Source: a virus. From it: 64,000 nucleotides of DNA. The position numbers were made by a program, and so were the translations under genes. Shown here one piece after another: positions 13,710 to 64,000 of this stretch; position 1 is the first letter of the stretch; every line of letters starts with the position of its first letter. The notes below the pieces were generated by a model. It had not been told where the DNA came from, made no database searches, and saw only the letters and a program-made list of their open reading frames with translations. Location of the stretch: the IMG/VR virus record IMGVR_UViG_3300008120_000139, positions 1-64,000 of that record. The stretch is one strand, 5' to 3'.

Positions 13710-13711
13710 TT

Positions 13712-17128: not shown

Positions 17129-17161
17129 AATGATATTTATTGAAAAAATTATCTTGGTATT

Positions 17162-17599: not shown

Positions 17600-17609
17600 A
17601 ATTTATTTA

Positions 17610-42653: not shown

Positions 42654-45600
42654 ATGACTACCAATGTACTTAAGTTACCCGGCGATTATAAAATAAAAGC
42701 ACTAAATGGCTTAATTGAAATTGAAGCCGGAAATGATATTGACATTATTTCTGGTGGTACGGTTACTATAGAGGCACCTGTTGAAGTTTATGTTGATACA
42801 CCATTAACTACTTTCACAGGCGATGCAACTGTAGAAGAAAATACTATTTTAGGACTTACTACAGATAATACTATCGAAGCTAATGCACGTTTTATTACTG
42901 ATGTAGTTCCTAAAGATAGTGCTACTTATGATTTAGGCTTATCTACTAATACATGGAATAAATTAAATTCAGAAGAAGCTGAATTCTATAGCCCTAATAA
43001 TGTAGGAAATCCTTACGGTAGACCATACGATCCTGGTGATATATACGATACTGAAGCACATAGACGTGAAGGTTCTGTATATGTAACTGGCGGTATGGGT
43101 ATTGAAAAAGACTTAAACGTCGGTGGATGGATTTACGGTAGAATTGATTTTGCTAACACAACCACATTCGTATACACAACTGCTACTAATAACGACGAAA
43201 ATTATTATCTACCATTTGTAAGATATCAATATGGGACTCCTCCCGTACCTAGTCGTATTTTTGTTGACGAAACAAGTCCAGCAGTTCCAAGTGGTTTACG
43301 ATATAATCCGTCAACAGGAAAAATTACTACAGAACAAATTGATGTAGTTGGTACAGAAGATACATCGGATCCAACTACAGGTGCTTTAACGGTAGCAGGT
43401 GGTGTTGGTATTGAATTAAGCTTACAAGTTGGTGAAGATGTAACATCATCTAACTTATATGCCCAGACCGACAATACAGGGCAAATTGGTACTTCTTCTA
43501 CCCAATGGTCTGAAGCTTATATACAAAATTTATTCACGAGATACATTAAGTCAACTACTGGTACAATTCAAATTGCACCGAAAGACCCATTAACTGAAAT
43601 TATTGGCGATATTAGAGTAAGAGGTGTTAATCCGATAGGTACTGCACCCGTTGTAACTAATACATTATATGTTACAGTAGATGGCAATGATACAAATGAT
43701 GGCCGCGCACAAGATGCAAGTAGAGCTTGTAGAACTATAGGTGGCGCATTACGAAGCCCTCATTATCAACCAGGTACACAAATTTTAGTAAGCGCTGGTA
43801 GATACTTAGAAGACAATCCTCTTAGATTAAAACCTTATACAAGTATTAGAGGATCTGATATACGTACAACATTTATCGAACCTATTAATAAAACTCAAGA
43901 CTTATTCCATTTAGATAGCGGATGTTATCTAAATTACATGACTTTCTTAAATGGTAGAAGTGGACTATTAGAAGGACCTTACGAACAAGGATTTAATAGA
44001 GGCGCATATGCTACAGCATTTCCTCCATTATCAGGTGCTGATAGAATAGATTTATTCCATTCTCCATATGTACAAAACTGTACAAATCAAAGTGGTCCTT
44101 GGTTCCGCGACGGAACAATGTTTGTACCAAATCAAAGCATCCAAGTTCCGGCAATTGTAGGTACAGGTACATGGGCGTTTAATACAACAAGTATAGTTGT
44201 TAATGTAGTATCAGAACCAATTAACGGATTTATTAATGCTGGACAACCAGGATCTGGTACAACAGATTATACTGGACATTTAGAAAGCACAGTTAATTTA
44301 CAAGGTACTATACCTACTGTAAGTAGTTTACCTACTTCTCCTACACCTATATTACTCGACGGATATATTACATCAGATACTGGCGATTTATGGGTATATA
44401 CCGAAGCAACAACTATTACGCAAGGTATGTATGTAAATTCTGGACAACAAAATCCAGGATTCTTTAATGCAAGAACATTAATGCTTGCAAATAAACAATT
44501 TATACAAGAACAAGTTGTTGAATTTGTTGAGCAAACATTTAATAGCGGAAGTTTTTCATATGATGCAGTTAAATGTGAAAGAGATATAGGATTAATTGTC
44601 GATAGTATAGCAATTGATTTGCTACAAAATAGTGAAAGCGAAAGTATTTTTGCAGGTTTACAATATTGGAGACAAAGTGGATATGTTGACTCTATTGGAG
44701 ATCAAATAACTACTACTACAGATGCTATTAACTATGTTAAATCTCAGGCTATTTTAGCAGTAAGCTCACCGTTTGACGCAACAGTAGGTTCAAAATTTGA
44801 TATAATAATAGATATTTTAAACACACCCTTATCTACAATATCATCAGGTGCATTTGCAGAAACAATTACTAATTTAATAGAAGCAAACCCTAATGGTATT
44901 GCTTCAACAGATCCAGCAACTGTAGCTGCATATGACGCATTACTGGCAGCAAAAAGTACTATAGCAACAAATACCATTAATTATATTTCAATAGCGCATC
45001 CGTTATTCACTTCTTATAGTGTAGATAAGTGTACTAGAGATGTGGGTTATATGATTGATAGCGTTGCTTTTGATTTGTTACATGGCGGTAGTAAACAAAG
45101 TATTAAATCAGGAGTATACTACTTTGGTTATTCAGCTGCTCAAACTGAAGTACCAAACGAATTACCTCAAACAGTTCAAGCATATAATTTTATAAAATCG
45201 TTAGTATCTAATGTAGTACTTGCTACTCCTATTGTTAATCCATATCAAGTTGGTGTTACACAAACAACTGGATTAAATTCTGCAACAATTTACGAAGTTA
45301 ATGCGTTGGAAGATAGTATTGATTTAATTACAAAAATTATAAGAAATGGCCCTAGCGTAGTTGATGCTAGAATTCCTATTAATTTAAACCAAAGCGGAAA
45401 TACAAATGTATTAAATGCATATAACTTATTAGTTAATAATAGAGCATTTATACAAGCTGAAACTATTGCTTATATTAACAGCAGCACATTTAGCACATTT
45501 AGTAGCTATTCAAAAGAAAAGTGCTACAGAGATGTAGGTATCCTAGTTGAAAACATAGCCTATGATGCAGCATTCGGTGGTAACCAAAAAGCAATAGAAA

Positions 45601-48600
45601 GTGGATTAGCTTACTACGACGGAGTTATTAGCAGAATTGCAGGACAAGAAACTCAAACAGTATCGGCTATAGATTACTTAAATCAATTAACTCAAGATGT
45701 TATTACTAATACATCTGCACCTGATTTATTAAGTGGGTCAGGCGTCCCTCAAGTAATTAATTGGGTATTAACAAACGGTGATGTAGCTAGTGAATCAATT
45801 AATAACTTAGTTAATATTATAACTGATATAATTAATAAAGGTCCATCTGCTGCACCTACAATGTATAGTAGTACTGGTCCTGATGCTGCATTTGTTAGTG
45901 CAGAAGTTTTATTACAGGCAAATAGAGAATTTATACAACAAAATACTATTAATTATATTAATAATATTATCTACGCCGGCGGTTTACCATACAGTGAAAT
46001 TAAATGTCGTAGAGATACAGGATTGATTATTGATTCTATCGCAACAGATTTGATGCACTACACACCAGAATTTAGTCAATCGACATTTGCTGGTTTACAA
46101 TATTGGAGTCAAGATAACTATGTTGGCGATATTGAAGATCAATTAAATCCAACTGTTGCTGCAATGATATATTTAAAAGAAACAGCAGCAAAAATAATGA
46201 AAAATATTACACCTGCTGATGATCTAATTGATAGATATCATACCGGTTCGCCGACTCAAGATACATCTTTAGAAGCCGCAACAGATGCAGAAGTATTCAC
46301 AGTTAATTCTTTATTTGATTTAATCATAGAAATTGTTAACGGTAGAAAAACAGGATGGACCGATAGAATTATTTCAAACGGATTAGCAAGTCATTTACCA
46401 AGTATACAAAATGCTTATAATATTTTACAAGAAAACAAAGAATATTTAGGATATGAAATAACTGCTTACGTTGATGCAACTAATTTTGGATTTACATACG
46501 ATTTAGGAAAATGCCGTAGAGATGTCGGTTACATGATAGATGCTGTATGTTTTGATATGGTACATGGTGGTAATAGACAAAGTATTCAAAATGGTCTATA
46601 CTATTACGGATTTAGTACTTCATTATCGAATATACATGGAAATCAAAATGTTGCAACTATAGCAGCATTTAATTATCTATCATCGATATCTGGTCAAGTA
46701 ATACAAAATATTACTGTAACACCTAATCAATCTAATGCAGTACAAATATTTGGCGAAACTGTAGGTACATCTTCTGAGGCCACAACACTTGCAAATGCAA
46801 TATCTACAATTACTAATATTATTCAGAATTCACCGACTGTTGCATCACAGCCGACTCAAGTTTATTTTACAGCTTCAAATACTACGTCGACTATAGCTGC
46901 ATATAGTTTGTTGAATTCAAATAGAACATTCTTAGTAGAACAAACAATTGCTTTTATTGATCAAACATATAATCCGGGTGCATTTAACTATAACGAAGCA
47001 AAATGCTACAGAGATGTTGGATTAATTGTTGACGCAGTAAGTCAAGATATTTTATTAGGCGGAAATCAAAAGAGTATTGAAGCAGGTTTAGCATATTGGA
47101 GTGCAGGTTATAATTATGTAACTGGGCAAGAAACTACAACTACAATGGCTATAAATTATGCTTCTACAATTAGTCTACAGATTATAGCTAATCAACCAGT
47201 CGTTGTACAGTCAGGTACAACAGTAAGTCAAATTATAAATCCGTTCTTTGATTATGGTTGGGAATATGGTCCTCAAGAAGCAGTGGCCAGAAACTTTAAC
47301 ATTATTACGGATATAATAGAAAGAGGTCCGATATATGCACCTCCTGTTTATGCCGGTGGAGGCCTATTCTCTCTAACTGGTTTAAATGGTTCAGATGTTA
47401 AAATAAGTCCTCAGGTCACATCTGTTGTACCTATATCAGCAGGAACATATAGAATTGGTTTAAGTACGTCAACTATAGGATTTGGAACTAATTCTACTTT
47501 ATATTTTGGAGATACATTGATATTCCCAATAAGAGATAATCAAGTAGAAGAACAAAGTCTAAAGTACACAGGAAGTACAAGTACTTGGCAACAAAGAAAA
47601 ATTGATCCTATAGGTTCTATGGGAGGAAGTTTAGTAGACGGTGCTGTAATTAGCGATCGTAGCCCTATTCAATCGTTTGTTTATGATGCTTTCACTCAAG
47701 TTAACCAAGGTGGTAGAGGAATACATATAACAAATGATGGTTATGCACAGCTAGTTTCTGTGTTTACTATCTTCTGTTCAGTTGGGGTACAAACAGATAA
47801 CGGTGGTATTGCAAGTATTGTTAACAGTAATGCAAACTTTGGTAATATATGTTTGTTATCAAAAGGATACGGTAGACGTAAATTTAGTGGTACAATATAT
47901 AATCCTGCATTTAAATCATATCCCGATGATCCGGTATTCAATGAATTTTTCCCTGAAGGATATTGGCCAAACGGAGGAAGAGTTAGAGCATTTATTCCAG
48001 ATTTAGATGATAGACCACATATTTCTCTAGTTATGGAAATTGTTCCTCCTGACGGACATGAAAATGAACAAAACTTCCCTGGATTTTTAAATGCTACACC
48101 TAACAAAGCAGCATTAACTACAGGAACTATTACAATTACTGATATCGATACTGAAGGGATTGCTGTCGGAAATTATCTGTACGTTAGAGATCAAAATGGA
48201 TTTGAAGGAACTGGTACAATATTCAAACTATATGCAGATACAGGTACAATCGTTACTGATGTAGGGTATAGAAGTGTTACATTAAATAAAGCATTAACAA
48301 ATGGTGGATCAGATCCAGAATTTACTGATAATGATAATTACTTCAATTTATATTTCTGCGGTAATGCTTATTACACAGTATTAAGTAGTGAAGTAGGAGA
48401 TAATCCATTGCCTGTAGGTACACATGTGTTATCTGCAAATCCATATACAGGTATTACAATTGATCAAAGACCGGCTCATATTGCGTCATTACATCATTTA
48501 AGTACTATAACAAACAAAGTGATTAGTAATATTGCAGTTACTCCTTTATCTATAGGAACTACAGCTAATCAAATAATTAATCCATTAATTTTAGGTGGTA

Positions 48601-49340
48601 ACCAAGCTATTGATTTTATTAATTTAAGATTTAATGAGTTAATTAATATAGTCGACGCATTAAATCTTGCACAAGCAGAAGCTGTTATTCCGTCAAGTTT
48701 ACGTACAACAAGTGGACCAGCCGTAGAAGGTGCAAGTGCTGCTGTTCGATTAATAACAGATAACATAGAATTTATCGCAGATGAAGTAACTAATTATGCT
48801 GTAGAATGGATCAACGCTAGTCCGACACCATATACAATGACAGACTCTCAACAGGCAAAATGTAAACGAGATACAAAAATTATTCTTCAGCGATTAATTT
48901 ACGATATACAATCGGGTGGCCGTTATAATACTGTTATGAGCGGTCTAAGTTATTGGCAACGTAACGGTACACATCATATTATTCAATTAGGCGAAAATGT
49001 AAGAAGAACTGAGTTATTCCCTGACGGTTCGACAATTAATTTCTTCCAGCGTAGCTATATGAGTGCTTCTGGTTATGTATTTGAATATGTTGGAGCAGGC
49101 ATTGATTATGGTGCACTTCCTCAACGAGGAGTTGCAGATCCTAAACAAGGACAAGAAGTTGTTATGTTAGATAGCGGTAAAGTATTCTTTACTAGTACAG
49201 ATCAAAACGGTGACTTCAGAATTGGTCCAGGATTAGTAATTAGTCAGGCAACAGGCGTTCTAAGTGGTAGAACATTTACTAAATCATTGTTTGCTAATAT
49301 GACTCCATTTATATTAGCAATCGAATCCGGCGGAGGTTAA
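42654..49340 (+). CDS. Large tail-fibre/appendage protein (2228 aa)
   Basis: Residues 1-150 open with beta-repeats (IKALNGLIEIEAGNDIDIIS, EVYVDTPLTTFTGDATVE) of the fibre N-terminal type, followed by GSVYVTGGMGIEKDLNVGG. Residues about 335-460 resemble a right-handed beta-helix: VTVDGNDTNDGRAQDASRACRTIGGAL, ILVSAGRYLEDNPLRL, SIRGSDIRTTFIEP. From about residue 640 to 2070 there are seven units each containing K-C-x-R-D followed by a hydrophobic helix (KCERDIGLIVDSIAIDLL, KCYRDVGLIVDAVSQDIL). The C-terminal 50 residues (DQNGDFRIGPGLVISQATG...FANMTPFILAIESGG) recall the end of large structural proteins in T4-like phages of cyanobacteria (from memory). GAGGA precedes the start. It is probably an extended adsorption appendage. 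Confidence 0.75.
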   Translation: MTTNVLKLPGDYKIKALNGLIEIEAGNDIDIISGGTVTIEAPVEVYVDTPLTTFTGDATVEENTILGLTTDNTIEANARFITDVVPKDSATYDLGLSTNTWNKLNSEEAEFYSPNNVGNPYGRPYDPGDIYDTEAHRREGSVYVTGGMGIEKDLNVGGWIYGRIDFANTTTFVYTTATNNDENYYLPFVRYQYGTPPVPSRIFVDETSPAVPSGLRYNPSTGKITTEQIDVVGTEDTSDPTTGALTVAGGVGIELSLQVGEDVTSSNLYAQTDNTGQIGTSSTQWSEAYIQNLFTRYIKSTTGTIQIAPKDPLTEIIGDIRVRGVNPIGTAPVVTNTLYVTVDGNDTNDGRAQDASRACRTIGGALRSPHYQPGTQILVSAGRYLEDNPLRLKPYTSIRGSDIRTTFIEPINKTQDLFHLDSGCYLNYMTFLNGRSGLLEGPYEQGFNRGAYATAFPPLSGADRIDLFHSPYVQNCTNQSGPWFRDGTMFVPNQSIQVPAIVGTGTWAFNTTSIVVNVVSEPINGFINAGQPGSGTTDYTGHLESTVNLQGTIPTVSSLPTSPTPILLDGYITSDTGDLWVYTEATTITQGMYVNSGQQNPGFFNARTLMLANKQFIQEQVVEFVEQTFNSGSFSYDAVKCERDIGLIVDSIAIDLLQNSESESIFAGLQYWRQSGYVDSIGDQITTTTDAINYVKSQAILAVSSPFDATVGSKFDIIIDILNTPLSTISSGAFAETITNLIEANPNGIASTDPATVAAYDALLAAKSTIATNTINYISIAHPLFTSYSVDKCTRDVGYMIDSVAFDLLHGGSKQSIKSGVYYFGYSAAQTEVPNELPQTVQAYNFIKSLVSNVVLATPIVNPYQVGVTQTTGLNSATIYEVNALEDSIDLITKIIRNGPSVVDARIPINLNQSGNTNVLNAYNLLVNNRAFIQAETIAYINSSTFSTFSSYSKEKCYRDVGILVENIAYDAAFGGNQKAIESGLAYYDGVISRIAGQETQTVSAIDYLNQLTQDVITNTSAPDLLSGSGVPQVINWVLTNGDVASESINNLVNIITDIINKGPSAAPTMYSSTGPDAAFVSAEVLLQANREFIQQNTINYINNIIYAGGLPYSEIKCRRDTGLIIDSIATDLMHYTPEFSQSTFAGLQYWSQDNYVGDIEDQLNPTVAAMIYLKETAAKIMKNITPADDLIDRYHTGSPTQDTSLEAATDAEVFTVNSLFDLIIEIVNGRKTGWTDRIISNGLASHLPSIQNAYNILQENKEYLGYEITAYVDATNFGFTYDLGKCRRDVGYMIDAVCFDMVHGGNRQSIQNGLYYYGFSTSLSNIHGNQNVATIAAFNYLSSISGQVIQNITVTPNQSNAVQIFGETVGTSSEATTLANAISTITNIIQNSPTVASQPTQVYFTASNTTSTIAAYSLLNSNRTFLVEQTIAFIDQTYNPGAFNYNEAKCYRDVGLIVDAVSQDILLGGNQKSIEAGLAYWSAGYNYVTGQETTTTMAINYASTISLQIIANQPVVVQSGTTVSQIINPFFDYGWEYGPQEAVARNFNIITDIIERGPIYAPPVYAGGGLFSLTGLNGSDVKISPQVTSVVPISAGTYRIGLSTSTIGFGTNSTLYFGDTLIFPIRDNQVEEQSLKYTGSTSTWQQRKIDPIGSMGGSLVDGAVISDRSPIQSFVYDAFTQVNQGGRGIHITNDGYAQLVSVFTIFCSVGVQTDNGGIASIVNSNANFGNICLLSKGYGRRKFSGTIYNPAFKSYPDDPVFNEFFPEGYWPNGGRVRAFIPDLDDRPHISLVMEIVPPDGHENEQNFPGFLNATPNKAALTTGTITITDIDTEGIAVGNYLYVRDQNGFEGTGTIFKLYADTGTIVTDVGYRSVTLNKALTNGGSDPEFTDNDNYFNLYFCGNAYYTVLSSEVGDNPLPVGTHVLSANPYTGITIDQRPAHIASLHHLSTITNKVISNIAVTPLSIGTTANQIINPLILGGNQAIDFINLRFNELINIVDALNLAQAEAVIPSSLRTTSGPAVEGASAAVRLITDNIEFIADEVTNYAVEWINASPTPYTMTDSQQAKCKRDTKIILQRLIYDIQSGGRYNTVMSGLSYWQRNGTHHIIQLGENVRRTELFPDGSTINFFQRSYMSASGYVFEYVGAGIDYGALPQRGVADPKQGQEVVMLDSGKVFFTSTDQNGDFRIGPGLVISQATGVLSGRTFTKSLFANMTPFILAIESGGG

Positions 49341-49352
49341 AAAGGATATATT

Positions 49353-49745
49353 ATGGCATTAATTCCATTAAACACATTTAAAACAAAAACTTTTAGGTTA
49401 AACGATATTTCAACTCAAACAGTTTATACAGCACCTGTAGGTGTAACCAGCATCGTATTAATGGCTCAAGTTTCTAACTTGACTACAGAAACTCAAACTG
49501 TTAATTTTGTACACTATAGACGATTTCCTGTATTAGCAGATGCTCAGGGCAACGGAGCTCAACCATCCGATCAAAATAATATAGGATCATATCTTGTTAA
49601 AGATTTTTCAATTCCGGGCGGTGATGCAGCAAGTATGCTTTCTGGAAAATTAATTATTGAAACATTAAATAGTATAAGAGCAAGTGCAGTTAATAGCGGA
49701 ACATGTCAATTAGTTTTGAGTATACTTGAAACAGCTAATGAATAA
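49353..49745 (+). CDS. Small virion protein in the fibre region (130 aa)
   Basis: 130 residues, beta-rich, beginning MALIPLNTFKTKTFRLNDISTQTVYTAP and containing TSIVLMAQVSNLTTETQTVNFVHYRRFP. It follows the large appendage gene by 12 bases with AAGGA and precedes another fibre gene by 16, so it is part of the same transcript. The compact beta-sandwich look suggests an attachment adaptor or small fibre cap; no known family was recognised. Confidence 0.6.
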   Translation: MALIPLNTFKTKTFRLNDISTQTVYTAPVGVTSIVLMAQVSNLTTETQTVNFVHYRRFPVLADAQGNGAQPSDQNNIGSYLVKDFSIPGGDAASMLSGKLIIETLNSIRASAVNSGTCQLVLSILETANE

Positions 49746-49761
49746 ACCAGAGAATTAAATT

Positions 49762-51777
49762 ATGCCAAGACTATTAAGTGGATCAACATTACGTCGTGGA
49801 GGTAGCGGAGAATTCCTTGACCTTAGAGGAGCAATGCCTCAACTACCACCTTCAGAAACTACCGCAACTGGTTTTACACTTGTAACTGATTCTCTATACA
49901 GAACTACGTATAGATCAAGTTTAGGATTTATCGAAATTAAAACTGCTACAATGTATAGCAGTTTACCAGAAGGTACAATTCGTATATTGGCCACTGGAAC
50001 TTCGTTCTTGGCAACTAATACAGAATCAGGGACATTGGTTGTAAAAGGTGGCATCGGTGTCGGCGGCAACATGAATATTGCCCAAGACATTGTTGTTAAT
50101 GATTTAACTATAGGAAAAGGTTTAGAAGGTTACAATAATATTGTATTTCAAGGTACAGCAACTGCTAGAGCTAACGATTTTAATGTAGGACAACAATCAA
50201 TTACAATTGGCTACGATTCTTTAACAGGAATCGAAACGTCATTTAGAAATATTGCTATCGGTTCAAGTGCATTAAGTTCAGGAACTGACCTACGATTAAG
50301 TATAGCAATTGGGGATAATGCATTAAAAAATGTAGGGGTACCAAATTTTATTTCAGTTGCTACAATAAATGATATTGATCGTTATTTGTCATCAACGATT
50401 TCTTCAGTTTTGCAACAAAATCCGATGAGAATTATTGCAAACAATCATGGCCTGCTTAACGGATCACAAATTTATGTAACAGGTGTTGATGGAATAACTA
50501 CATCATCCATTGCAACCGGTGTTTATAGCTTAATTAATGAACAACCGTTATATGTTAATGCAATAGATATTAACACATTAGAAGCTTATTATGATCAAGC
50601 ATTAACTGTCCCTGTAAACTCTACAAATGCATCGGCTTATGTAACTGGCGGAACGGTGTATTCTCCTGTAATAATAACAGTAAATACCCCTCATCAATTA
50701 GTTTCAGGGTCATATGTACATATCGATGGAATAGTTGGAACAACACAATTAAACAACGATGATTTTTATGTAAGACAATTGTCGGCAAATCAATTTTCAT
50801 TGTTCTTAGATCCTATTTTTAAAGAACCAGTTGACGGAACACCATTCGGTTCTTACGTAAGTGGCGGTGAAGTACAAATAAGACCTCAAAGAGATGCTAA
50901 TATTGGTTATGGTCACAGTGCAGGCGAAAACTTAATAGATGGTACAAATAACGTTTTACTTGGTAATAACTCTGCTCAGAATTTAAACACAGGTTCGAAC
51001 AATATTATTATTGGAAATAATAAAGCATTTGATCTTTTTACTGGTAGTGGTATTATTAGTATCGGTGGTGATAACATTGTTAATGGAAAAAATAACCAAG
51101 TTAACATAGGATCAATATTTTATTATGACGGATCAACGACATCGACTATTAGATCTATAACTAGAATATTATCATACGAACAATCGGTAAGCACTAATAC
51201 AGGTGCATTACAAACTTTAGGCGGTATAGGTATTAATGGTAATGGGTATTTTGGAGGAATGCTACAGGTATTAGGTACCCAAACATCAACTATTACTAAT
51301 GATTTATCTGTACTAGGCAATACAACTATTAAAAAATCATTAACAGTTGATGGCTCCGATAATATTAATTTAGTACCAAACGGTGCAACAGTATATATAC
51401 AACCTGATTTAGGTGGTTCTGTAGTTATTAGAGCAGATTCTCCCGGAACGATAAACAATATCAGTATTGGTGCAACTGATGCAGAATCTGGTAGATTTAC
51501 TACTGTTCAAGTAATAAACACTACTAATTCAACATCTACTGTAACTGGTGCATTAGTAGTAGCCGGTGGAGTCGGAATTGGTGGAAATGTGTATAGCAAT
51601 AGCGGAAACGCTGATGAAAATTATTTGTTACATACTCCTCGAATATCAGTAAGTGCAGGAGTACCCCCTACTGATCCTAAAGTGGGCGATTTTTGGATCG
51701 ATTCAGCTGTTCCTGCATATTTGCAATATATTAAAGACGGTACGAATAAATTTTGGATACAAATCGGTTCCGTTTAA
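49762..51777 (+). CDS. Fibre protein with YadA-head-like and GALxVxGGxGIGG modules (671 aa)
   Basis: The N-terminus (residues 1-60) has the form MPRLLSGSTLRRGGSGEFLDL. It contains ESGTLVVKGGIGVGGNMNI near residue 90, AIGSSALSSGTDLRLSIAIGDNAL near 165-190 and NVLLGNNSAQNLNTGSNNIIIGNNKA near 395-420. The latter two are IAIG/NxxIG repeats like those of left-handed beta-roll adhesin heads. Two beta modules with HGLLNGSQIYVTG and HQLVSGSYVHIDG lie between. Two more GALxV modules are near residues 475 and 595. The end (VPAYLQYIKDGTNKFWIQIGS) resembles a small cap domain. Tail-fibre component by inference. Confidence 0.7.
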   Translation: MPRLLSGSTLRRGGSGEFLDLRGAMPQLPPSETTATGFTLVTDSLYRTTYRSSLGFIEIKTATMYSSLPEGTIRILATGTSFLATNTESGTLVVKGGIGVGGNMNIAQDIVVNDLTIGKGLEGYNNIVFQGTATARANDFNVGQQSITIGYDSLTGIETSFRNIAIGSSALSSGTDLRLSIAIGDNALKNVGVPNFISVATINDIDRYLSSTISSVLQQNPMRIIANNHGLLNGSQIYVTGVDGITTSSIATGVYSLINEQPLYVNAIDINTLEAYYDQALTVPVNSTNASAYVTGGTVYSPVIITVNTPHQLVSGSYVHIDGIVGTTQLNNDDFYVRQLSANQFSLFLDPIFKEPVDGTPFGSYVSGGEVQIRPQRDANIGYGHSAGENLIDGTNNVLLGNNSAQNLNTGSNNIIIGNNKAFDLFTGSGIISIGGDNIVNGKNNQVNIGSIFYYDGSTTSTIRSITRILSYEQSVSTNTGALQTLGGIGINGNGYFGGMLQVLGTQTSTITNDLSVLGNTTIKKSLTVDGSDNINLVPNGATVYIQPDLGGSVVIRADSPGTINNISIGATDAESGRFTTVQVINTTNSTSTVTGALVVAGGVGIGGNVYSNSGNADENYLLHTPRISVSAGVPPTDPKVGDFWIDSAVPAYLQYIKDGTNKFWIQIGSV

Positions 51778-51798
51778 CATGAACAAGAGTAAAAATAT

Positions 51799-52710: not shown

Positions 52711-52723
52711 AGGGAGAACGATA

Positions 52724-55867: not shown

Positions 55868-55873
55868 TATAAT

Positions 55874-55881
55874 TATAAATA
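55874..55881 (+). promoter_or_regulatory. Late promoter TATAAATA (exact)
   Basis: An exact match to the T4 late consensus, in the 57-base gap before the 965-residue fibre gene. The box ends 43 bases before the ATG, leaving a normal leader of about 35 bases with AAGGGA near the start codon. Confidence 0.65.
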
Positions 55882-55924
55882 TATACAAATGCTTTTTTAA
55901 GCCGTTTAGTGGAAAGGGAAACTA

Positions 55925-58822
55925 ATGGCAATACAAATGGACTTCAGGGTCAAAAATGGCCTTGTGGTTGCTACTACCGCAACTATACTTGGAACAACCA
56001 GCTCAACATCAACTACTACTGGTGCTTTGATTGTATCGGGCGGCACTGCTATCAGTGAAAACTTAAATGTTTTTGGCAATGCAACTGTAGGAACGTCGAC
56101 TAAAAGTTCTTTATTAACTGTAAACAACACTGTTACCAGTGCAATCAATGTTCGGTCAAATGCAGCGTTCATAAGTCCAAATAGTGTAAACACAATAACT
56201 GTTAGAATGTTAAACAGTGATGTATTAACATTTAACGGAGCATCTGGTCAATTATTTTCCATTAGTGATAGTTTTACTGGTACTATATTTGCAGTAAATG
56301 ATATTTCTGGTGTACCTAGTATAGAAGTATATGACACAGGATTAGTTAGTTTAGCAGAATTTACTGGTAATGTTGGTATAGGAACTACTTCAACAACGGC
56401 TAAATTAACAGTTAATGGTGGTGTTAGTATATCTGGTATTACTACTATAACAAATACTTCTAATGCAATATCGACTACCACTGGTGCTTTACAAATTATA
56501 GGCGGTGCCGGTATAGGACGAGATGTTTGGATAGGTGGCTCACTTAATGTTGCAGGAGGAATTACTGCATCAGTTTCGGGTGTTATTACTACAGCTTCGA
56601 CGGTTAACACAGTACTTCAAACATCTACAGCAACACACTTTTTAACATTTGTTGACTCAAATAATTCTGGTGCTACTGCTGAAAGTTTATATACAACTAG
56701 CAGTTTTGTTATTAATCCAGGTACAGGCAATGTAGGTATTGGGACAACTCCTACGACAAGTAAATTAGAAGTTGCAGGCAACGTTAGAATAACTGGTATT
56801 ACTACAGTTACTGATACAACAAATGCAACATCTACAACTACAGGTGCTTTACAAGTAGTAGGCGGCACAGGCATCGGAAGAGATCTGTGGGTCGGTGGTA
56901 ATATTAATGTTGCTGGTGTGGTTACAGGAGCAATAAGTCAAGTACAAACTACTGCACAAACAAGTACTGCTAGTTACTATTTGACATTTGTTGATACGAA
57001 TAATTCTAGTGCCGCTGCTGAATCATTATTTACAACAAGTTCCTTTACTGTTATTCCAAGTTCCGGTAACGTTGGTATCGGCACAAATGATCCACAAAGA
57101 AAATTAACAGTTAGAAGTGATAGTATCGGAACTGTTACAGTAATTGCACTATATAATGCTGATACTACAAATGGAAATGGTTCAGTTGTATCTTTTAGAG
57201 CTAATACAACAGGAACAAGTTCTGCTACATTCCACGAAGTTGCCGGGTTTCAAATAGCAACAACAGAACATAATCATCTAACAAGAAATACTAATTTTTC
57301 TATTTTTACAGATAGTTCGTCTACAGGATTAACAAGTAAAGTAACAATAACAGGCGACGGAAAAGTTGGTATTAACACAGCTTCTCCTACAAGCACTTTG
57401 ACTGTTAGTGGAACTGTGTCGATTAATAGTGATACTGTTGTTACAGGCGGCAGTTTACAAGTTAGAAATGGTATTCCAATCTATCTATGGAATTCTGATA
57501 CAACTAATTACTATTATTTAGATAATACCGGAGCATCTGGAAGTACTAACGGTAAATTAAGATTCCTTCAAGGGAATGTTGGAACACGAGTAATATTTGA
57601 TAGTGATGGCAATGTTGGTATCGGAACAAGTAGTCCAACATTTAAAGTAGACGTTGCACTTGGCTCTGTTAATAATAATTCAACTAGCTTTGGTTACAAT
57701 GTATACGCAGATGCTACAACAAATGTTGGATACGCCGGTTATAGTTTTACACTTACTAATTCGACATCTACTGCAACAGGTTTTATACGATTAGCAAGAA
57801 CTGCAAGTACTGTATATCTAGGGATGGAGATACAGAGTCAAAGTAGAGATGGTATTAGATTCTTAACAGGAGCAACAACTCCAACTGAGGCTGCACGTAT
57901 TAGTGCGGCTGGTATTGTTACTATTACAAGCACAACAAATGCAACATCAACAACTACAGGTGCTTTACAAGTAACTGGTGGCGTCGGAATTGGCGGCAAT
58001 TTATATGTCGGTAATAGCGCAACAATATTAAGCACAATAGCAAGTACAGGATCTGTTCAACAAAATGCATTATATGTAGCAGGCGGTGTTGGTATTGGAA
58101 GTTCTCTATATGTTACAGGTCCTGCTGTGTTCAATAATAACGTTACATTTTCAGGGACTTCTACATATGTTTACTCAACTAACACAGTTTATACAGATAA
58201 CTTAATAAATATTCACTCACCGGCAGGCAGCACAGGAACTAATCATACTTGGACAGTCAACGACGGAAAAGACATAGGTTTTATATTTCATTATTACGAT
58301 ACCGCAGATAGAGATGGATTCTTAGGTCTAGCAAATGATACAAAATATTTAGAATGGTATGATAGAGGCGCTGAGTCTACAACTGGTACCTTTACTGCTT
58401 CAAACTATGGTATATTTAAAACAGGTGGAATACAATTAGTTAATACCACTGCAAGTAGTTCTACTTCTACTGGTGCACTAACTGTCGCGGGCGGAGTTGG
58501 TATCGGAGGTGATCTTTATGCCAGAAATATCTATACTAATGGTTCTCAAGTAATTCCTTTTAAAATGGAAGAATTTACTGCTACAGGTAGTCAAACGACA
58601 TTTACTGTAACAGGTGGTTATATAGCAGGAACTGTAATGGTATTTGCAAACGGTATTTTTTTAAATTCTGGAGACTTTACAGCAAGCAATGGAACTACTG
58701 TTGTATTAAATTCAGCACGTAATGCAGGAGATATTATTAAAATTATTGCAGGTGGAACAAGCTCTTCGTCTAATCAACAACAATCATTCTCAATTGCAAT
58801 GAGTGTTGCATTGGGTATGTAA
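55925..58822 (+). CDS. Large modular tail-fibre protein (965 aa)
   Basis: The N-terminus is MAIQMDFRVKNGLVVATTATI, then TTGALIVSGGTAISENLNVFG. Further modules are TTGALQIIGGAGIGRDVWIGG (near 183), TTGALQVVGGTGIGRDLWVGG (near 305), TTGALQVTGGVGIGGNLYVG (near 677) and STGALTVAGGVGIGGDLYA (near 848). Between them are repeated GNVGIGT stretches. Residues about 735-840 share the YVYSTNTVYTDNLINIH...DGKDIGFIFHYY module with the preceding gene. The last 85 residues (FTATGSQTTFTVTGGYIAG to SIAMSVALGM) are nearly duplicated at the end of the next gene, making this a likely shared tip or trimer-forming domain. AAGGGAAAC precedes the start. Confidence 0.75.
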   Translation: MAIQMDFRVKNGLVVATTATILGTTSSTSTTTGALIVSGGTAISENLNVFGNATVGTSTKSSLLTVNNTVTSAINVRSNAAFISPNSVNTITVRMLNSDVLTFNGASGQLFSISDSFTGTIFAVNDISGVPSIEVYDTGLVSLAEFTGNVGIGTTSTTAKLTVNGGVSISGITTITNTSNAISTTTGALQIIGGAGIGRDVWIGGSLNVAGGITASVSGVITTASTVNTVLQTSTATHFLTFVDSNNSGATAESLYTTSSFVINPGTGNVGIGTTPTTSKLEVAGNVRITGITTVTDTTNATSTTTGALQVVGGTGIGRDLWVGGNINVAGVVTGAISQVQTTAQTSTASYYLTFVDTNNSSAAAESLFTTSSFTVIPSSGNVGIGTNDPQRKLTVRSDSIGTVTVIALYNADTTNGNGSVVSFRANTTGTSSATFHEVAGFQIATTEHNHLTRNTNFSIFTDSSSTGLTSKVTITGDGKVGINTASPTSTLTVSGTVSINSDTVVTGGSLQVRNGIPIYLWNSDTTNYYYLDNTGASGSTNGKLRFLQGNVGTRVIFDSDGNVGIGTSSPTFKVDVALGSVNNNSTSFGYNVYADATTNVGYAGYSFTLTNSTSTATGFIRLARTASTVYLGMEIQSQSRDGIRFLTGATTPTEAARISAAGIVTITSTTNATSTTTGALQVTGGVGIGGNLYVGNSATILSTIASTGSVQQNALYVAGGVGIGSSLYVTGPAVFNNNVTFSGTSTYVYSTNTVYTDNLINIHSPAGSTGTNHTWTVNDGKDIGFIFHYYDTADRDGFLGLANDTKYLEWYDRGAESTTGTFTASNYGIFKTGGIQLVNTTASSSTSTGALTVAGGVGIGGDLYARNIYTNGSQVIPFKMEEFTATGSQTTFTVTGGYIAGTVMVFANGIFLNSGDFTASNGTTVVLNSARNAGDIIKIIAGGTSSSSNQQQSFSIAMSVALGM

Positions 58823-58824
58823 CC

Positions 58825-58832
58825 AATAAATA
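58825..58832 (+). promoter_or_regulatory. Late-promoter-like AATAAATA
   Basis: One mismatch from TATAAATA, ending 40 bases before the 644-residue fibre gene, the same distance as at the exact boxes nearby. AGGA follows close to the start codon. Confidence 0.45.
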
Positions 58833-58872
58833 TTAGTAATTGAAGGCATTAAAGAACTTTTAGGATTATCAG

Positions 58873-60807
58873 ATGAGCAGCATCGCAACTCAATTATCAT
58901 TTTCGAGAGCACGTAACATTGTCGGTGGCAATCTTGGTAGTATTCCTTATCAAGATGCTACTAGCTCTACTGTTTTTATTCCAATCGGATCGAATACTTT
59001 TGTTTTAACTAGCAATGGTACAACAGCTACATGGACAAATCCTAGCACTTTATCAGTAGGCGGATCAAGTGCACAAGTTAACACAGTTCTTCGAACAACT
59101 AGTGCCGACCATTTTTTAACTTTTGTAGATAGTAATAATCCAAGTGCTACAGCAGAATCGATCTATACAACAAGCTCTTTTGTAATTAACCCTGGTACTG
59201 GTAATCTAGGTATCGGCATCAGCCCCACTTCAAAATTGCATGTATCGGGTGATGTAAGAATAACAGGTATTACTACTGTTACTAATACAACAAATGCAAC
59301 ATCAACTACTACAGGTGCTTTAATTGTTTCCGGTGGAGTGGGAGTAGGTGGAAATTTATATGTCAATGGTCCTGGTACTATTGCAAGTCCTGCAACTATA
59401 TCTGTCTCGTCGGATTCAACAAGTACAGGCGGTGACGCACAAATTTTAATAAGTCAAAATCCATCTAGTAATGATTTAAAAATTTTAGTTGCAGGAGTTG
59501 ATACTAGAACAGACGGATTAATTGCAAACGATCAATATATCATTGCAGGACAAAGATTAAATTTAAACAGTAAGGGCAACGGAACTCTTACAAATACAGC
59601 AATTCTTTTAGGTGGAAGCGGTATAAGTCCCTATAGCGATATAATATTTTATACAGCAGTACAAAATGCTAGTGGAACCGAAAGAGTAAGAATAGATTAT
59701 TTAGGAAATGTTGGTATTAACATAAATCAACCAACATCTACATTACACGTTGCTGGCACAACAAGAATAACAGGTATAACAACAATTACTAATGCTACTG
59801 CTGCTAGCTCAACAAGCACAGGTGCATTACAAGTAACAGGCGGAGTAGGCATCGGTGGAGCATTATGGGTAGAAGATTCTATCTATGTTAAAGGTGGAAA
59901 TATTGAGATAAGAGATGAAACTACTTCTAGTATCGTTCTTGCAAGGCTCAATCAACAAGCGTCTACAGCAGTTTTTGAACTTGGTAGATTTGATGGAATA
60001 GCATCTTCTCCAGCAATTGACTTTCATTCTAGCGGTGGTAACATTGATTTTGATGCTCGAATTATTTCAGTAGGCGGTAGTACATCAACAACAGGTCAAG
60101 CAAGGCTAGATTTACAAGCAAATCAAGTTTATTTAAATAGTACTCAATCAGCAACATCAACAACAACAGGAGCGTTAGTTGTTGTTGGTGGAGTTGGTGT
60201 AGGTGGAAACATTCATTTAGGTGGCGATTTACAAGTTCAAAATGCTTCCTATATTAGAGGTAGGACCACTAGCGGCAATTCTACACGCATGATGGGAATT
60301 AATGCCGTTGACACATTCTACGTAGGCAGTGTTGATACACCAATTTCCGGTGGAATAATTTTAACTGTAGGTAACAATAGAAACGCACTTACAATTAGCA
60401 GCAATGATATTGTTGCAGTAACTACAAATACAAATGCAACTTCTACGACAACAGGTGCATTGGTTGTAACAGGTGGTGCCGGTATCGGCAGAGAATTATA
60501 TGTAGGCGGAGATATTTACAGTAGAGGATCTCTTGTTCTTCCTCAACGTATACAAGAATTTATAGCAACAGCAAGTCAAACAACCTTTACAGTTACTGGT
60601 GGGTATACTGTTGGTTCAGTTCAAGTATTTGCAAACGGTATTCAATTAGGTAGTGGAGCATTTGTAGCTTCGAATGGCACTACAGTGGTGTTAAACAGTG
60701 CTCGTGATACTGGAGATATTATTAGAGTAATATCCGGTGGAACAAGTAGTGCAGTTAATAATATTCAATCATTTTCATTAGCTATGTCAGTAGCATTTGG
60801 TGTGTAA
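58873..60807 (+). CDS. Tail-fibre protein (644 aa), paralogue of neighbours
   Basis: The N-terminus, MSSIATQLSFSRARNIVGG then GSIPYQDATSSTVFIPIG, is repeated almost exactly at the start of the partial gene at 63773. Modules: TTGALIVSGGVGVGGNLYV near 150, STGALQVTGGVGIGGALWV near 322, TTGALVVVGGVGVGGNIHLGG near 434 and TTGALVVTGGAGIGRELYVGG near 530. The last 85 residues (FIATASQTTFTVTGGYTVG to SLAMSVAFGV) duplicate the end of the preceding gene. The protein is thus a head and tail shared with different partners around variable middle modules. Adsorption fibre by inference. Confidence 0.75.
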   Translation: MSSIATQLSFSRARNIVGGNLGSIPYQDATSSTVFIPIGSNTFVLTSNGTTATWTNPSTLSVGGSSAQVNTVLRTTSADHFLTFVDSNNPSATAESIYTTSSFVINPGTGNLGIGISPTSKLHVSGDVRITGITTVTNTTNATSTTTGALIVSGGVGVGGNLYVNGPGTIASPATISVSSDSTSTGGDAQILISQNPSSNDLKILVAGVDTRTDGLIANDQYIIAGQRLNLNSKGNGTLTNTAILLGGSGISPYSDIIFYTAVQNASGTERVRIDYLGNVGININQPTSTLHVAGTTRITGITTITNATAASSTSTGALQVTGGVGIGGALWVEDSIYVKGGNIEIRDETTSSIVLARLNQQASTAVFELGRFDGIASSPAIDFHSSGGNIDFDARIISVGGSTSTTGQARLDLQANQVYLNSTQSATSTTTGALVVVGGVGVGGNIHLGGDLQVQNASYIRGRTTSGNSTRMMGINAVDTFYVGSVDTPISGGIILTVGNNRNALTISSNDIVAVTTNTNATSTTTGALVVTGGAGIGRELYVGGDIYSRGSLVLPQRIQEFIATASQTTFTVTGGYTVGSVQVFANGIQLGSGAFVASNGTTVVLNSARDTGDIIRVISGGTSSAVNNIQSFSLAMSVAFGV

Positions 60808-60816
60808 TATACTATC

Positions 60817-60824
60817 TATAAATA
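60817..60824 (+). promoter_or_regulatory. Late promoter TATAAATA (exact)
   Basis: An exact consensus in the 36-base gap before the 967-residue gene, ending 19 bases before the ATG with AAGGAAAT in between. The expected leader is short, about 12 bases. Confidence 0.6.
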
Positions 60825-60843
60825 ATACAAAGGAAATTTAAAA

Positions 60844-63747
60844 ATGGCAAAAAATTTAATTAGACAGTACGTGTTTAGTCCAGGAGCAGCTGGCGTTGGA
60901 TTCGTAAGAATCCCCGGCCGCTTTACACACGAACAAATAATGTTGATAACAAACACTACTAGAAATCAAATTATTTACAACTTTGCAGATGCTGCTCATA
61001 GCGGAACTACTGTAGTTTTTACATCAGGTAATGATGCAACTAATTTTCCTACATTAGCACAAAGAGCTGATGGGTATACTACTATAACTTTGGCCGCTAG
61101 TACAGTAGGACAAAATGCTAACGATAGACTTCAAATATTAGTTGAAGAATCAGAAAATGGAATGCGTATTCGACCTTGGGCATTTGGTACTGATGCTATT
61201 GAACGTATGCGTGTAAGTAACCCTCGTTCAATGATCGACGCTGACTTTGAATACGGGCTACAGCCTACAAAATGGGCAGGATACGGACTATTACGTGGAT
61301 ACCCGTCTGTATATGAATTTCCAGGTGTTGACTTAACAGTAAGTACAATAACTACAGATTTTACTACAACAAGTGCTAGTAATAGTTTAATAACTATCAC
61401 TACATCTGCCGCACACGGAATTACTGCTGGACAAGCTATTAACATCACAAGTTTAAATCCGGCAATCTCCGGATTTAGTCGAGCAGACGGTAGTTTTATT
61501 GTATTTGACGTACCAAGTGGAACACAAATTAGATATTTTGCAAATGGAGTTGTAGGAACTGCTTCCGGGCAGAGCTTATTAACAGATGCTACAACTTTAA
61601 AAAGAGGTAATATATATACAGGTGCTGCATTAGCATCTACTACTGCATCCGGTAACGGTGCTAACCCTACTATTGTAACTGTAAACTTTTCAAGTACTCA
61701 CGGATTACTTCCAGGAACACCGATTTATGTAAGTATGGCCGGTGGTACAAACCCTACTAACGCAACAGGACAATTCTTTGTTAATACAGTTCCTAGTTTA
61801 ACTAGTATTACATTTACAGCAAGAACTGGAGCAATAGTTACTCCGGGAACTCCTACAGTATATGCGTTATCAAACAGCTCAGTTACACATAGACCCTTTG
61901 ACGGCGGCGTTATTTTGTCGTGTAAAACACCAGCTTTTGGAGCATCGACTGTTCGAGTAAGCAAACGTTACTTCCGATATCAATCAGGTAAGGGATTATT
62001 GTGGTCAACTGGAACAATGTTTAAACCTAGTTATGATGTCCAAACTATAACTGCTTCTGGTACCACAGTTGGATCTACTGTTACTGTTAAAACAGACGAC
62101 ATTGACCACGGATTACAAATCGGTGCTCAAGTAACTTTATCCGGTGTTACTACATCTGGATACAACGGAACATATACTGTTAATGGAATTACAGACGATT
62201 ATACGTTTACATTTTTAGCAACATCTGTATTAGGAGCAACAACAGCTATTTTAGATTTAAGATGTCAAGTTTCAGTAGCAAGCTGGCATGGCGCAGTTGT
62301 TCGTGCAGGTTGCTTTGATGATCAAAACGGTATGTTTTGGGAATTTGACGGGACTAGATTAAATATTGTTCGCCGAAACGCTACACAACAAATTACAGGA
62401 ACGATTAGTATAAACAGCAATTCTAACGCTGTTACTGGTACAAATACTAGATTTACTACTCAGGTAAGAGTAGGAGATAAAGTTGTTATACGAGGAATGA
62501 CTCATTATGTAACACAAGTATCTAGTAACACCGCAATGACTGTAGCACCAGATTATCGTGGAACTACCAATGCTTCCGGAGTTAAGGCTAGTTTAGTTCA
62601 AGAAACTAGAATTACACAAAGTAATTTTAATATTGACAAACTAGATGGCACTGGTCCTAGTGGATTTGTAATTGATACTGCTAGAATGCACATGGTAGGT
62701 ATTCAATATACTTGGTACGGTGCAGGATTTATTGACTTTATGGTCAGAGGCGGCGACGGTAATTGGATTTACGCACATCGTATTAAAAACAATAACGTAA
62801 ACACAGAAGCACATATGAGATCCGGTAATTTACCAGTTCGTTATAGTATCGATAACGACGGTAGCCCAGCTCTGGCGTTTTTAACTGCCGACCCTGGTGC
62901 AGGTGGAACGACACTTAATGTTAGTGATACAACATATTTTCCAACAGCGGGTACGTTGTATATAGATAATGAACTTATTAGTTACACTGGAAAAACCGCA
63001 ACAACATTTACAGGATGTACACGAGCAGCTACGTTAACACAGTATACTGGTGGTAGTTCACGAAGTTTTACTGCCGGCACAGCAGCAGCCCATGCTATTA
63101 ATACTGGCATAATTCTTATATCTAACACTTGCAGTCCAACACTTAGCCACTGGGGAAGTGCACTTATAGCCGACGGTGGATTTGATGAGGATCGCGGATA
63201 TATTTTTAATTATCAACGAACTGGGTTATCAGTTAGTACTACTGCTGTAACAGCGTTCTTAATTAGACTTGCTCCTAGTGTTAGTAACAGTGCTGTGGGA
63301 GATTTAGGTAGTAAAGATTTGCTAAATCGAAGTCAATTACTGCTAAATGCTGTAGGTATACAAGCTTATGGTAATCCAGCAAGTGCTACTCAAGGATCTA
63401 TTATTGTTGAAGGTGTTCTAAATCCTAAAAACTTTTCCAATGCAACTTGGAGCACATTAAACTTAGAAAGTCAAGGCGGACAACCGAGTTTAGCACAGGT
63501 AGCAACATCAGTAACATGGTCAAGTGGCACATCGGCTACACCAGGAGAAACAGTTTTTGCGTTTGCAGTAACTCCAAATAGTGATGGCAGATTAGAACTA
63601 ACAGAACTGAAAGAACTAACAAATAGTCCGTTCGGTGGAGTCGGTGCGTATCCAAACGGGCCTGATGTGTTAGCAATAAATCTTCGTTGTGTTCTTGGTA
63701 CGCAGGTAGCATCTGTGTTATTAAGATGGGGCGAAGCACAGGCGTAA
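60844..63747 (+). CDS. Large virion structural/fibre protein (967 aa)
   Basis: This protein lacks the GALxV modules of its neighbours. Residues 1-160 begin MAKNLIRQYVFSPGAAGVGFVRIPG and include GMRIRPWAFGTDAIERMRVSNPRSMIDADFEYGLQPTKW, a segment recalled from large structural proteins in T4-like aquatic phages. Three beta modules follow with AAHGITAGQAINI, THGLLPGTPIYVSM and DHGLQIGAQVTLSG (near 195, 280 and 420). Residues about 465-720 contain WHGAVVRAGCFDDQNGMFWEFDG and FMVRGGDGNWIYAHRI, possibly a beta-propeller or lectin-like fold. An exact late promoter and AAGGAA precede it. Exact tail position is unknown. Confidence 0.7.
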   Translation: MAKNLIRQYVFSPGAAGVGFVRIPGRFTHEQIMLITNTTRNQIIYNFADAAHSGTTVVFTSGNDATNFPTLAQRADGYTTITLAASTVGQNANDRLQILVEESENGMRIRPWAFGTDAIERMRVSNPRSMIDADFEYGLQPTKWAGYGLLRGYPSVYEFPGVDLTVSTITTDFTTTSASNSLITITTSAAHGITAGQAINITSLNPAISGFSRADGSFIVFDVPSGTQIRYFANGVVGTASGQSLLTDATTLKRGNIYTGAALASTTASGNGANPTIVTVNFSSTHGLLPGTPIYVSMAGGTNPTNATGQFFVNTVPSLTSITFTARTGAIVTPGTPTVYALSNSSVTHRPFDGGVILSCKTPAFGASTVRVSKRYFRYQSGKGLLWSTGTMFKPSYDVQTITASGTTVGSTVTVKTDDIDHGLQIGAQVTLSGVTTSGYNGTYTVNGITDDYTFTFLATSVLGATTAILDLRCQVSVASWHGAVVRAGCFDDQNGMFWEFDGTRLNIVRRNATQQITGTISINSNSNAVTGTNTRFTTQVRVGDKVVIRGMTHYVTQVSSNTAMTVAPDYRGTTNASGVKASLVQETRITQSNFNIDKLDGTGPSGFVIDTARMHMVGIQYTWYGAGFIDFMVRGGDGNWIYAHRIKNNNVNTEAHMRSGNLPVRYSIDNDGSPALAFLTADPGAGGTTLNVSDTTYFPTAGTLYIDNELISYTGKTATTFTGCTRAATLTQYTGGSSRSFTAGTAAAHAINTGIILISNTCSPTLSHWGSALIADGGFDEDRGYIFNYQRTGLSVSTTAVTAFLIRLAPSVSNSAVGDLGSKDLLNRSQLLLNAVGIQAYGNPASATQGSIIVEGVLNPKNFSNATWSTLNLESQGGQPSLAQVATSVTWSSGTSATPGETVFAFAVTPNSDGRLELTELKELTNSPFGGVGAYPNGPDVLAINLRCVLGTQVASVLLRWGEAQA

Positions 63748-63772
63748 TATTATTATAATTTAGGAAATATGA

Positions 63773-64000
63773 ATGAGTACTGTAGACGTTCAATTATCTT
63801 TTTCGCGAGCAAGGAATATTGTAGGCGGAGTCATCGGAAGTCTCCCTTATCAAAATGCTACTAGTGCTACATTATTCATTCCTATTGGGGCAAATAGTAC
63901 CGTTTTACAATCAAACGGTACTACAGCAACTTGGGCAACATTAGGTAGTTTAACTGCCGGTGCAGCAAGTCAAGTTAATACAATACAAAGAACAACGAAT
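63773..64000 (+). CDS. Fibre protein N-terminus, cut by right edge
   Basis: ATG at 63773 with AGGA 7 bases upstream opens a frame that runs off the window, so 76 residues are visible. They start MSTVDVQLSFSRARNIVGG and continue GSLPYQNATSATLFIPIG, VLQSNGTTATW and SQVNTIQRTTN. These are close paralogues of the N-terminus of the 58873 gene, in the same order and spacing. An ATG at 63769 is in another frame that loses this similarity. The array of fibre genes therefore continues to the right. Confidence 0.85.
   Translation, partial: MSTVDVQLSFSRARNIVGGVIGSLPYQNATSATLFIPIGANSTVLQSNGTTATWATLGSLTAGAASQVNTIQRTTN

Follow-up and report, generated by a model that had tools for sequence, protein, structure and literature searches.

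The right third of a 64,000-nucleotide stretch of viral DNA (bases 1-64000 of the record IMGVR_UViG_3300008120_000139, hereafter the window) is, judged from its genes, the fibre locus of a T4-superfamily phage. By their matches, the genes termed here slots A to F are phage fibre genes; together with the gene at 60844-63747 they match PHROG tail and virion families. The best explanation of the locus, held at a probability of about 75%, is that it probably belongs to a phage of cyanobacteria and contains two unrelated repeat systems that change by whole units. Slot A would encode a giant fibre with a shaft made of a string of ~160-amino-acid (aa) helical domains of the phycobiliprotein (bilin-binding globin) fold, and the length of this shaft would change in steps of whole domains. 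In slots B to F, a 34-aa module with the pattern GALxVxGGxGIGG (the GAL module) would act as a standard joint linking other small domains. The slot order and the N-terminal ends would remain fixed, the number of joint-plus-domain units would change fast, and the C-terminal tips of slots D and E would be replaced. Identity of the module DNA would be unnecessary for such changes; rare or illegitimate recombination, combined with selection for working joints, could suffice.

Repeats of predicted phycobiliprotein fold in slot A

Two GAL copies lie in the N-terminal part of the slot A protein. Six ~160-aa helical repeats follow in tandem, and after an intervening region comes a seventh near the end; the C-terminus is kept in relatives (87%). 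The relatives carry 3-11 of these repeats, suggesting that the shaft changes length by whole domains. In one relative (G017, L221) the place of slot B is taken by another giant fibre, at 11329-18642 counted from the capsid end, which has 10-12 repeats of the phycobiliprotein fold.

The predicted fold relationship of these repeats to phycobiliproteins is well supported. The phycobilisome model PF00502 scores 39.4 bits on the whole slot A protein, compared with a curated cut-off of 22.2. Single repeats score above the cut-off in three relatives (G003, G015 and G018), and the best repeat of the window is below it at 19.3 bits. A profile of 90 repeats searched against PDB sequences (E up to 1) resulted in 14 matches, 14/14 of which are phycobiliproteins (best E 0.0073). 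The AlphaFold2 model of repeat 6, built with the 90 repeats as the alignment, has a predicted local distance difference test score (pLDDT) of 91.8 and a predicted template modelling score (pTM) of 0.86. In a fold search with this model the best 50 PDB matches are all phycobiliproteins from cyanobacteria, red algae and cryptophytes, named explicitly as such in all but one of the 50 listed entries, with a best E of 6.2e-4, template modelling (TM) scores up to 0.68 and probabilities of 0.99-1.00. An hhalign comparison of 126 repeats with 156 cyanobacterial phycobiliproteins, collected with a phycocyanin fragment as the query, gives a probability of 93% and a score of 47.6 with the C-x-R-D motif in register, while 30 column-shuffled controls reach at most 0.52% and a score of 15.7. 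The motif occurs in 156/156 of the cyanobacterial proteins compared. When the phage repeat profile was run against six whole cyanobacterial genomes, the best match was the phycocyanin alpha gene in three (E 0.008-0.05) and nothing was found in the other three.

The N-terminal X/Y helical hairpin, associated with subunit pairing, is unmatched. The PF00502 matches start at position 21-25 of 155, and the repeat 6 model has two helices before the C-x-R-D helix versus four in phycobiliproteins. Since this hairpin is unmatched, the slot A repeats are not filed as phycobiliproteins. The search of the open literature found no paper linking phage fibres to the phycobiliprotein fold, which is not proof of novelty; Pfam and InterPro pages may already flag some proteins of the slot A type.

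The cysteine of C-x-R-D is present in 121/126 repeats, and by conservation the three residues (C 96%, R 96%, D 98%) rank within the top five columns of the repeat. In eight isolated cyanophages the cysteine is kept in 36/36 repeats, and 3/36 have C-x-D-D. In phycobiliproteins and in some bilin biosynthesis-associated globins (BBAGs) this cysteine is the bilin-binding residue, with contacts to the bilin made by the other two residues; BBAGs bind bilins without lyases (PMC10151467). The likeliest role of the slot A repeats is nevertheless structural. They probably descend from bilin-binding globins and are now purely structural, forming the shaft, so that C-x-R-D would be retained because the repeats need it to fold or to contact each other. 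The tandem arrangement within a fibre gene, the five of 126 repeats without the cysteine, the C-x-D-D variants and the lack of a lyase gene in 16 clade records (all fragments) are consistent with this role. The bilin contacts of the same three residues elsewhere are a point against it, as is their conservation in a locus where the five neighbouring GAL-bearing genes (49762-60807) have zero cysteines in 3630 residues.

It is unlikely that the repeats are functional biliproteins, in which host- or phage-made bilins would sit on each conserved cysteine and phage bilin genes such as cpeT would serve the fibres. If they were, cyanophage tail fibres would carry rows of bilin pigments. The gene cpeT, which encodes a bilin lyase, lies within ~4 kb of a repeat-bearing giant fibre in 18 named Kyanoviridae phages: S-CAM1, S-CAM3, S-CAM4, Sf-FP1, Sf-CH3, Sf-FR1, S-RIM32, S-RIM44, S-RSM4, ACG-2014e, h, i and j, S-H9-1, S-H9-2, Syn1, S-WAM2 and S-PM2 (records include NC_020837, NC_015288, NC_013085 and NC_023587; L239-L246). 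The repeats are profile-confirmed in 6 of the 18. These phages are related, so the adjacency may be one inherited arrangement. A universal link to bilin is argued against by the repeats occurring in 313 records and cpeT in 60, with most repeat-bearing records showing no cpeT, and by P-SSM2, which is discussed for its bilin reductase genes (PMC2984593) and is without slot A repeats. In the clade of the window, cpeT is absent from 16/16 of the records, all fragments.

The isolated phages in which slot A repeats were found, in 133 records of one search and 313 of another, are all cyanophages; the 313 include one unassigned marine virus. The repeats are present in P-SSM4, S-CAM1, S-PM2 and DSL-LC03, and none were detected in T4, KVP40, GAP32 and Phosso or in HTVC008M, a Pelagibacter phage classified under Kyanoviridae. 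Slot A would therefore be a fibre with the predicted fold of the light-harvesting proteins of the host, with the pigment-binding motif kept and, among isolates, restricted to cyanophages. This raises the question of bilin binding by fibres and bears on why cyanophages carry bilin genes, the role of which was called unclear for Prochlorococcus phages in a review (PMC2984593).

Convergence of an all-helical domain might explain why the fold matches are only 13-20% identical in sequence and why the phycobiliprotein profile has no match in its N-terminal part, but it is highly improbable, because the fold, the sequence profile and the register of the motif all point the same way, and profiles that were shuffled or reversed match nothing.

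The GAL module

A profile hidden Markov model (HMM) derived from the copies in the window and searched in all six frames detects 23 GAL modules at 43083-60519; each lies on the + strand within a fibre gene. The original prediction of at least 23 copies between 43380 and 60490 was thus correct in number and essentially exact in range. The scores are 13.7-57.4 bits for 21/23 copies, 8.9 bits for the copy at 43083 and 3.5 bits for the one at 53303. Two further copies lie to the right of the window in the record (64427 and 70536). Every copy that scores >8 bits is on the + strand within a fibre gene, and no profile score reaches 1 bit on either strand of the first 41 kb. The proposal that the whole right third is devoted to the module is too strong. 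The modules total ~2.2 kb of 21 kb; slot A (6.7 kb) carries just two, both close to the N-terminus, and consists mostly of the other, helical repeat; and the gene at 60844-63747 has none.

The best pairs of copies are 70-86% identical in DNA. The pair 56793/57909 reaches 86% over 65 bp, the pair 57911/59266 reaches 81% over 99 bp, and the copy at 60430 is 73-75% identical to others over 74-77 bp. The close DNA likeness that had been pointed out around 56820, 57935, 59290 and 60430 is real but modest (73-86% over 65-99 bp). Codons for the same amino acid are identical at a frequency of 0.42-0.43 among copies within genomes, compared with 0.36-0.37 expected from codon usage, and at 0.362 between genomes, compared with 0.347 expected. 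The synonymous sites are near saturation. Under a shuffle that keeps column composition, no pair in the window is unusually alike (maximum P=0.74; variance P=0.53). The longest exact tract common to two separate copies is 24 bp; a longer one was discounted since it consists of the overlapping flanks of two neighbouring copies. The DNA likeness is mostly the result of a conserved protein motif and codon usage, and the small excess within genomes may reflect old duplication.

Pfam has no family for 18/19 copies, and the remaining copy has a chance-level DUF4900 match (E 0.029). No description of the module was found in the open literature, which is not proof that it went unnoticed. Its length, its glycine pattern and its position between small beta domains suggest that it most likely forms the joints of a trimeric beta shaft. 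One 122.6-kb viral contig (G016, IMGVR_UViG_3300027708_000034) has 63 GAL modules at 73940-116773, several dozen of them within one 3082-aa frame and its neighbours. In the gene at 49762-51777, the stretch at ~50930-51080 contains GTNNVLLGNNSAQNLNTGSNNIIIGNN-type repeats that look, on visual inspection, like the YadA-type head found in trimeric adhesins.

Variation among relatives and the mode of change

The loci read comprise 80 related to the gene at 60844-63747 and 120 stretches with the GAL pattern; the profile finds 773 copies in 155 of these loci. Eleven records with capsids 88-96% identical to that of the window were taken as close relatives and read rightwards from the capsid gene. The slots follow a single order. 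After the capsid gene come a small protein and, in most records, a 174-aa protein; next are slot A, the 130-aa protein and slots B, C and D, often with slot E behind them, and then variable genes. The N-terminal markers are LLSGS in slot B, LNFP in slot C, DFVTKNG in slot D and DFKVKNG in slot E. The interiors vary widely. Slot B has 378-840 aa with 1-5 GAL copies, slot C 216-361 aa with 1-3, slot D 677-1928 aa with 4-17 and slot E 307-1723 aa with 1-18, so that lengths within one slot differ up to fivefold. The N-terminal 45 residues of slots B to E are 45-62% identical, compared with ~90% for the capsid. The last 110 residues are 48-49% identical in slots B and C and 26-33% in slots D and E. 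By this comparison slots D and E retain their N-termini but not their C-termini. The differences among slot C orthologues consist of whole blocks of a GAL module plus linker. In two loci (L167 491-1984 and L193) a ~573-bp block with three GAL modules is tandemly duplicated in one fibre gene (84.6% over 949 bp), an instance of array growth in register with the modules.

Within the window, slot E has a 'GKDIG' domain in common with slot D and a C-terminal tip in common with fibre F. The fibres at 55925 and 58873 differ in their N-termini and share this tip (67%), with the shared part starting inside the last module of each. The fibre at 58873 and the one at 63773, right of the window, share their N-terminal 125 residues (69%) and then diverge. 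These two cases form a mosaic of N(E)+tip1, N(F)+tip1 and N(F)+tip2. Module-wise change in the fibres is therefore real, as seen in the 11 relatives, the slot C blocks and the shared tip. The original prediction of a modular mode of change holds to this extent, and gene structure is not identical in all relatives, since slot lengths, module counts and tips vary; the slot order is the part that does not change.

It is doubtful that the repeated module DNA is itself the substrate for homologous recombination between fibre genes and the swapping of intervening receptor-binding domains. In favour of such a mechanism, certain copies reach 80-86% identity over 65-99 bp and the tip common to 55925 and 58873 starts in a module. 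In addition, the homology of inter-module domains ends at modules roughly twice as often as expected under uniform placement (0.41-0.48 versus 0.15-0.25 in the best-resolved sets). This count takes each family once and well-resolved matches only, leaving 8-11 independent family-sides, and laxer cut-offs give no enrichment. However, more than half of the homology ends lie outside modules, the copies are near saturation at synonymous sites with no unusually alike pair in the window, and their exact common tracts are at most 24 bp. Near-identical fibre segments between contigs (10 pairs) show no clear recent crossover within a module. The tree of the 'GKDIG' domain does not demonstrate movement between slots D and E, as the approximately unbiased (AU) test keeps a within-genome duplication (p-AU 0.144). 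The proposal that the repeated code drives recombination thus found little support in the DNA of the modules.

Ordinary vertical inheritance with many old duplications and hardly any exchange is quite unlikely as well. The likeness within a genome is old (70-80% in DNA) and the constant slot order would fit, but module numbers, lengths and tips vary widely among phages with capsids 88-96% identical. The preferred explanation remains a fixed series of slots that changes by whole units. The GAL modules would provide a countable and alignable marker of the lengthening and re-tipping of cyanophage fibres, with conserved slots and interchangeable interiors.

Fibre tips presumably set the host range. 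Some of the slot proteins may serve as connectors at the baseplate instead of as receptor-binding tips, since slots B and C have a variable part flanked by conserved ends and slot C has a C-terminal domain similar to T4 gp9. This gp9-like domain suggests that slot C, and perhaps slot D, which has a weak PF23618 match, may connect fibres to the baseplate.

Genome context and host

The record has 71,657 bases. In the window there are T4-superfamily genes for the portal, the major head protein, the baseplate wedge and hub, and SbcC/SbcD-like proteins. The capsid protein is closest to those of Sinorhizobium phage Phosso, Vibrio phage 2.275.O and the GAP32 group (68-70%), and the closest relative of the gene at 60844-63747 is in Synechococcus phage S-CAM1 (51% identical). 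The host is probably a cyanobacterium. The jumbo-type capsid beside cyanophage-looking fibres might point to a jumbo cyanophage lineage.

Several points weigh against the explanation given here. By capsid, the closest isolates are proteobacterial phages of the jumbo type, which leaves the slot A repeats and the S-CAM1-like gene as the basis of the host assignment. The cyanophage P-SSM2 has no slot A repeats. The record, a contig of 71.7 kb, is incomplete. Homology ends are only weakly enriched at modules, with more than half of the ends falling elsewhere. No solved structure is related to the GAL module and the AlphaFold2 monomer model of GAL stretches has a pLDDT <50; the trimeric-joint role is therefore one that we infer.

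A search for near-identical copies of the region among phages gave no match, and tblastn of the gene at 58873-60807 against phages gave nothing at 1e-5, probably a consequence of low complexity. At the left end of the window, a 4448-aa gene on the - strand (363-13709) adjoins the baseplate genes and has a short CBM_5_12 carbohydrate-binding match (E 1.9e-6); neither GAL modules nor slot A repeats were detected in it. To the right of the window and directly after the fibre genes, five small paralogous proteins lie in a row on the + strand (record 64870-70218; L006 1871-7219). Their N-termini read NGLVxHxDxAN or similar, and 4/5 have a Laminin_G_3 (lectin-like) domain. A match of one small lectin-like protein in this part to PF07953 (clostridial toxin receptor-binding) was dismissed as likeness of the lectin fold only. 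The terminal gene (record 71192-71656; L006 8193-8657) is of low complexity and consists of STSTSWTTSVSTS repeats, suggesting that the assembly probably broke at that point.

Table 1. Positions of the fibre-locus features in the window
Feature	Positions	Strand	Basis
Major head (capsid) protein	40052-41227		nearest are jumbo phages of proteobacteria, 68-70%
Slot A giant fibre, 2228 aa	42654-49340	+	open reading frame; PHROG tail fibre families; relatives
GAL module, partial (8.9 bits)	43083-43136	+	profile HMM
GAL module	43344-43445	+	profile HMM
Phycobiliprotein-fold repeat 1, C-x-R-D	44436-44894	+	HMM
Phycobiliprotein-fold repeat 2, C-x-R-D	44895-45356	+	HMM
Phycobiliprotein-fold repeat 3, C-x-R-D	45384-45848	+	HMM; PF00502 15.3 bits at 45501-45719
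Phycobiliprotein-fold repeat 4, C-x-R-D	45867-46349	+	HMM
Phycobiliprotein-fold repeat 5, C-x-R-D	46374-46838	+	HMM
Phycobiliprotein-fold repeat 6, C-x-R-D	46866-47333	+	HMM; AlphaFold2 model of 46836-47348
Phycobiliprotein-like repeat 7, divergent, C-x-R-D kept	48708-49148	+	HMM
Small conserved gene between slots A and B, 130 aa	49353-49745	+	phrog_1276; in 10/10 relatives reaching it
Slot B fibre, 671 aa, 3 GAL copies, N-terminus LLSGSxLRxGGSG	49762-51777	+	
GAL module	50011-50073	+	profile HMM
GAL module	51166-51267	+	profile HMM
GAL module	51511-51603	+	profile HMM
Slot C protein, 303 aa, 2 GAL copies, N-terminus LNFPxNP, T4 gp9-like C-terminal beta domain	51799-52710	+	
GAL module	51976-52074	+	profile HMM
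GAL module	52249-52350	+	profile HMM
Slot D fibre, 1047 aa, 5 clear GAL copies and weak 53303, other repeat types	52724-55867	+	
GAL module	52787-52864	+	profile HMM
GAL module	53222-53299	+	profile HMM
GAL module, weak (3.5 bits)	53303-53404	+	profile HMM
GAL module	53714-53812	+	profile HMM
GAL module	55286-55381	+	profile HMM
GAL module	55385-55486	+	profile HMM
Slot E fibre, 965 aa, 6 GAL copies	55925-58822	+	
GAL module	55985-56080	+	profile HMM
GAL module	56447-56545	+	profile HMM
GAL module	56807-56908	+	profile HMM
GAL module	57923-58024	+	profile HMM
GAL module	58067-58123	+	profile HMM
GAL module, opens tip common to slot E and fibre F	58436-58534	+	profile HMM
Fibre F (slot F), 644 aa, 4 GAL copies	58873-60807	+	N-terminus common with record 63773-64867, tip with slot E
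GAL module	59278-59373	+	profile HMM
GAL module	59785-59886	+	profile HMM
GAL module	60133-60234	+	profile HMM
GAL module, opens tip common to fibre F and slot E	60418-60519	+	profile HMM
phrog_5838 virion structural protein, 967 aa, 0 GAL copies	60844-63747	+	anchor for finding relatives

Comparison with known systems

The slot A repeats have a predicted fold, a profile match and the C-x-R-D motif in common with phycobiliproteins and BBAGs. They differ in that they are arranged in tandem within a viral fibre, have no known bilin and are not part of an antenna. The C-terminal domain of slot C matches T4 gp9 (1qex, E 5.3e-6), the baseplate protein which connects the long tail fibres; slot C has a different N-terminus and GAL modules in addition. 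Residues 366-631 of slot E match, in a single stretch, the mosaic adhesive trimeric (MAT) fibre Bd2133 of Bdellovibrio (8ond, E 5.9e-5), and the GAL module itself is unmatched there. MAT fibres combine common shafts with varied tips (PMC10769870). They are cellular proteins of a predatory bacterium, whereas the window encodes phage proteins; the likeness is one of how the fibres work and membership is not claimed.

A further close system is that of the T4-like cyanophages (Kyanoviridae: S-CAM1, S-PM2, Syn1, S-RSM4, S-WAM2 and P-SSM4), which have slot A-type repeats in giant genes annotated as 'short tail fibre' or 'tail fibre'; none of the annotations encountered names the phycobiliprotein fold. 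P-SSM2 and P-SSM4 have the GAL module, as does the window, and the anchor gene at 60844-63747 has its counterpart in S-CAM1 at the 51% identity noted above. Compared with these phages, the clade of the window has a jumbo-phage-like capsid and far higher numbers of GAL copies, and its slots, which lie beside the capsid gene, have an order of their own.

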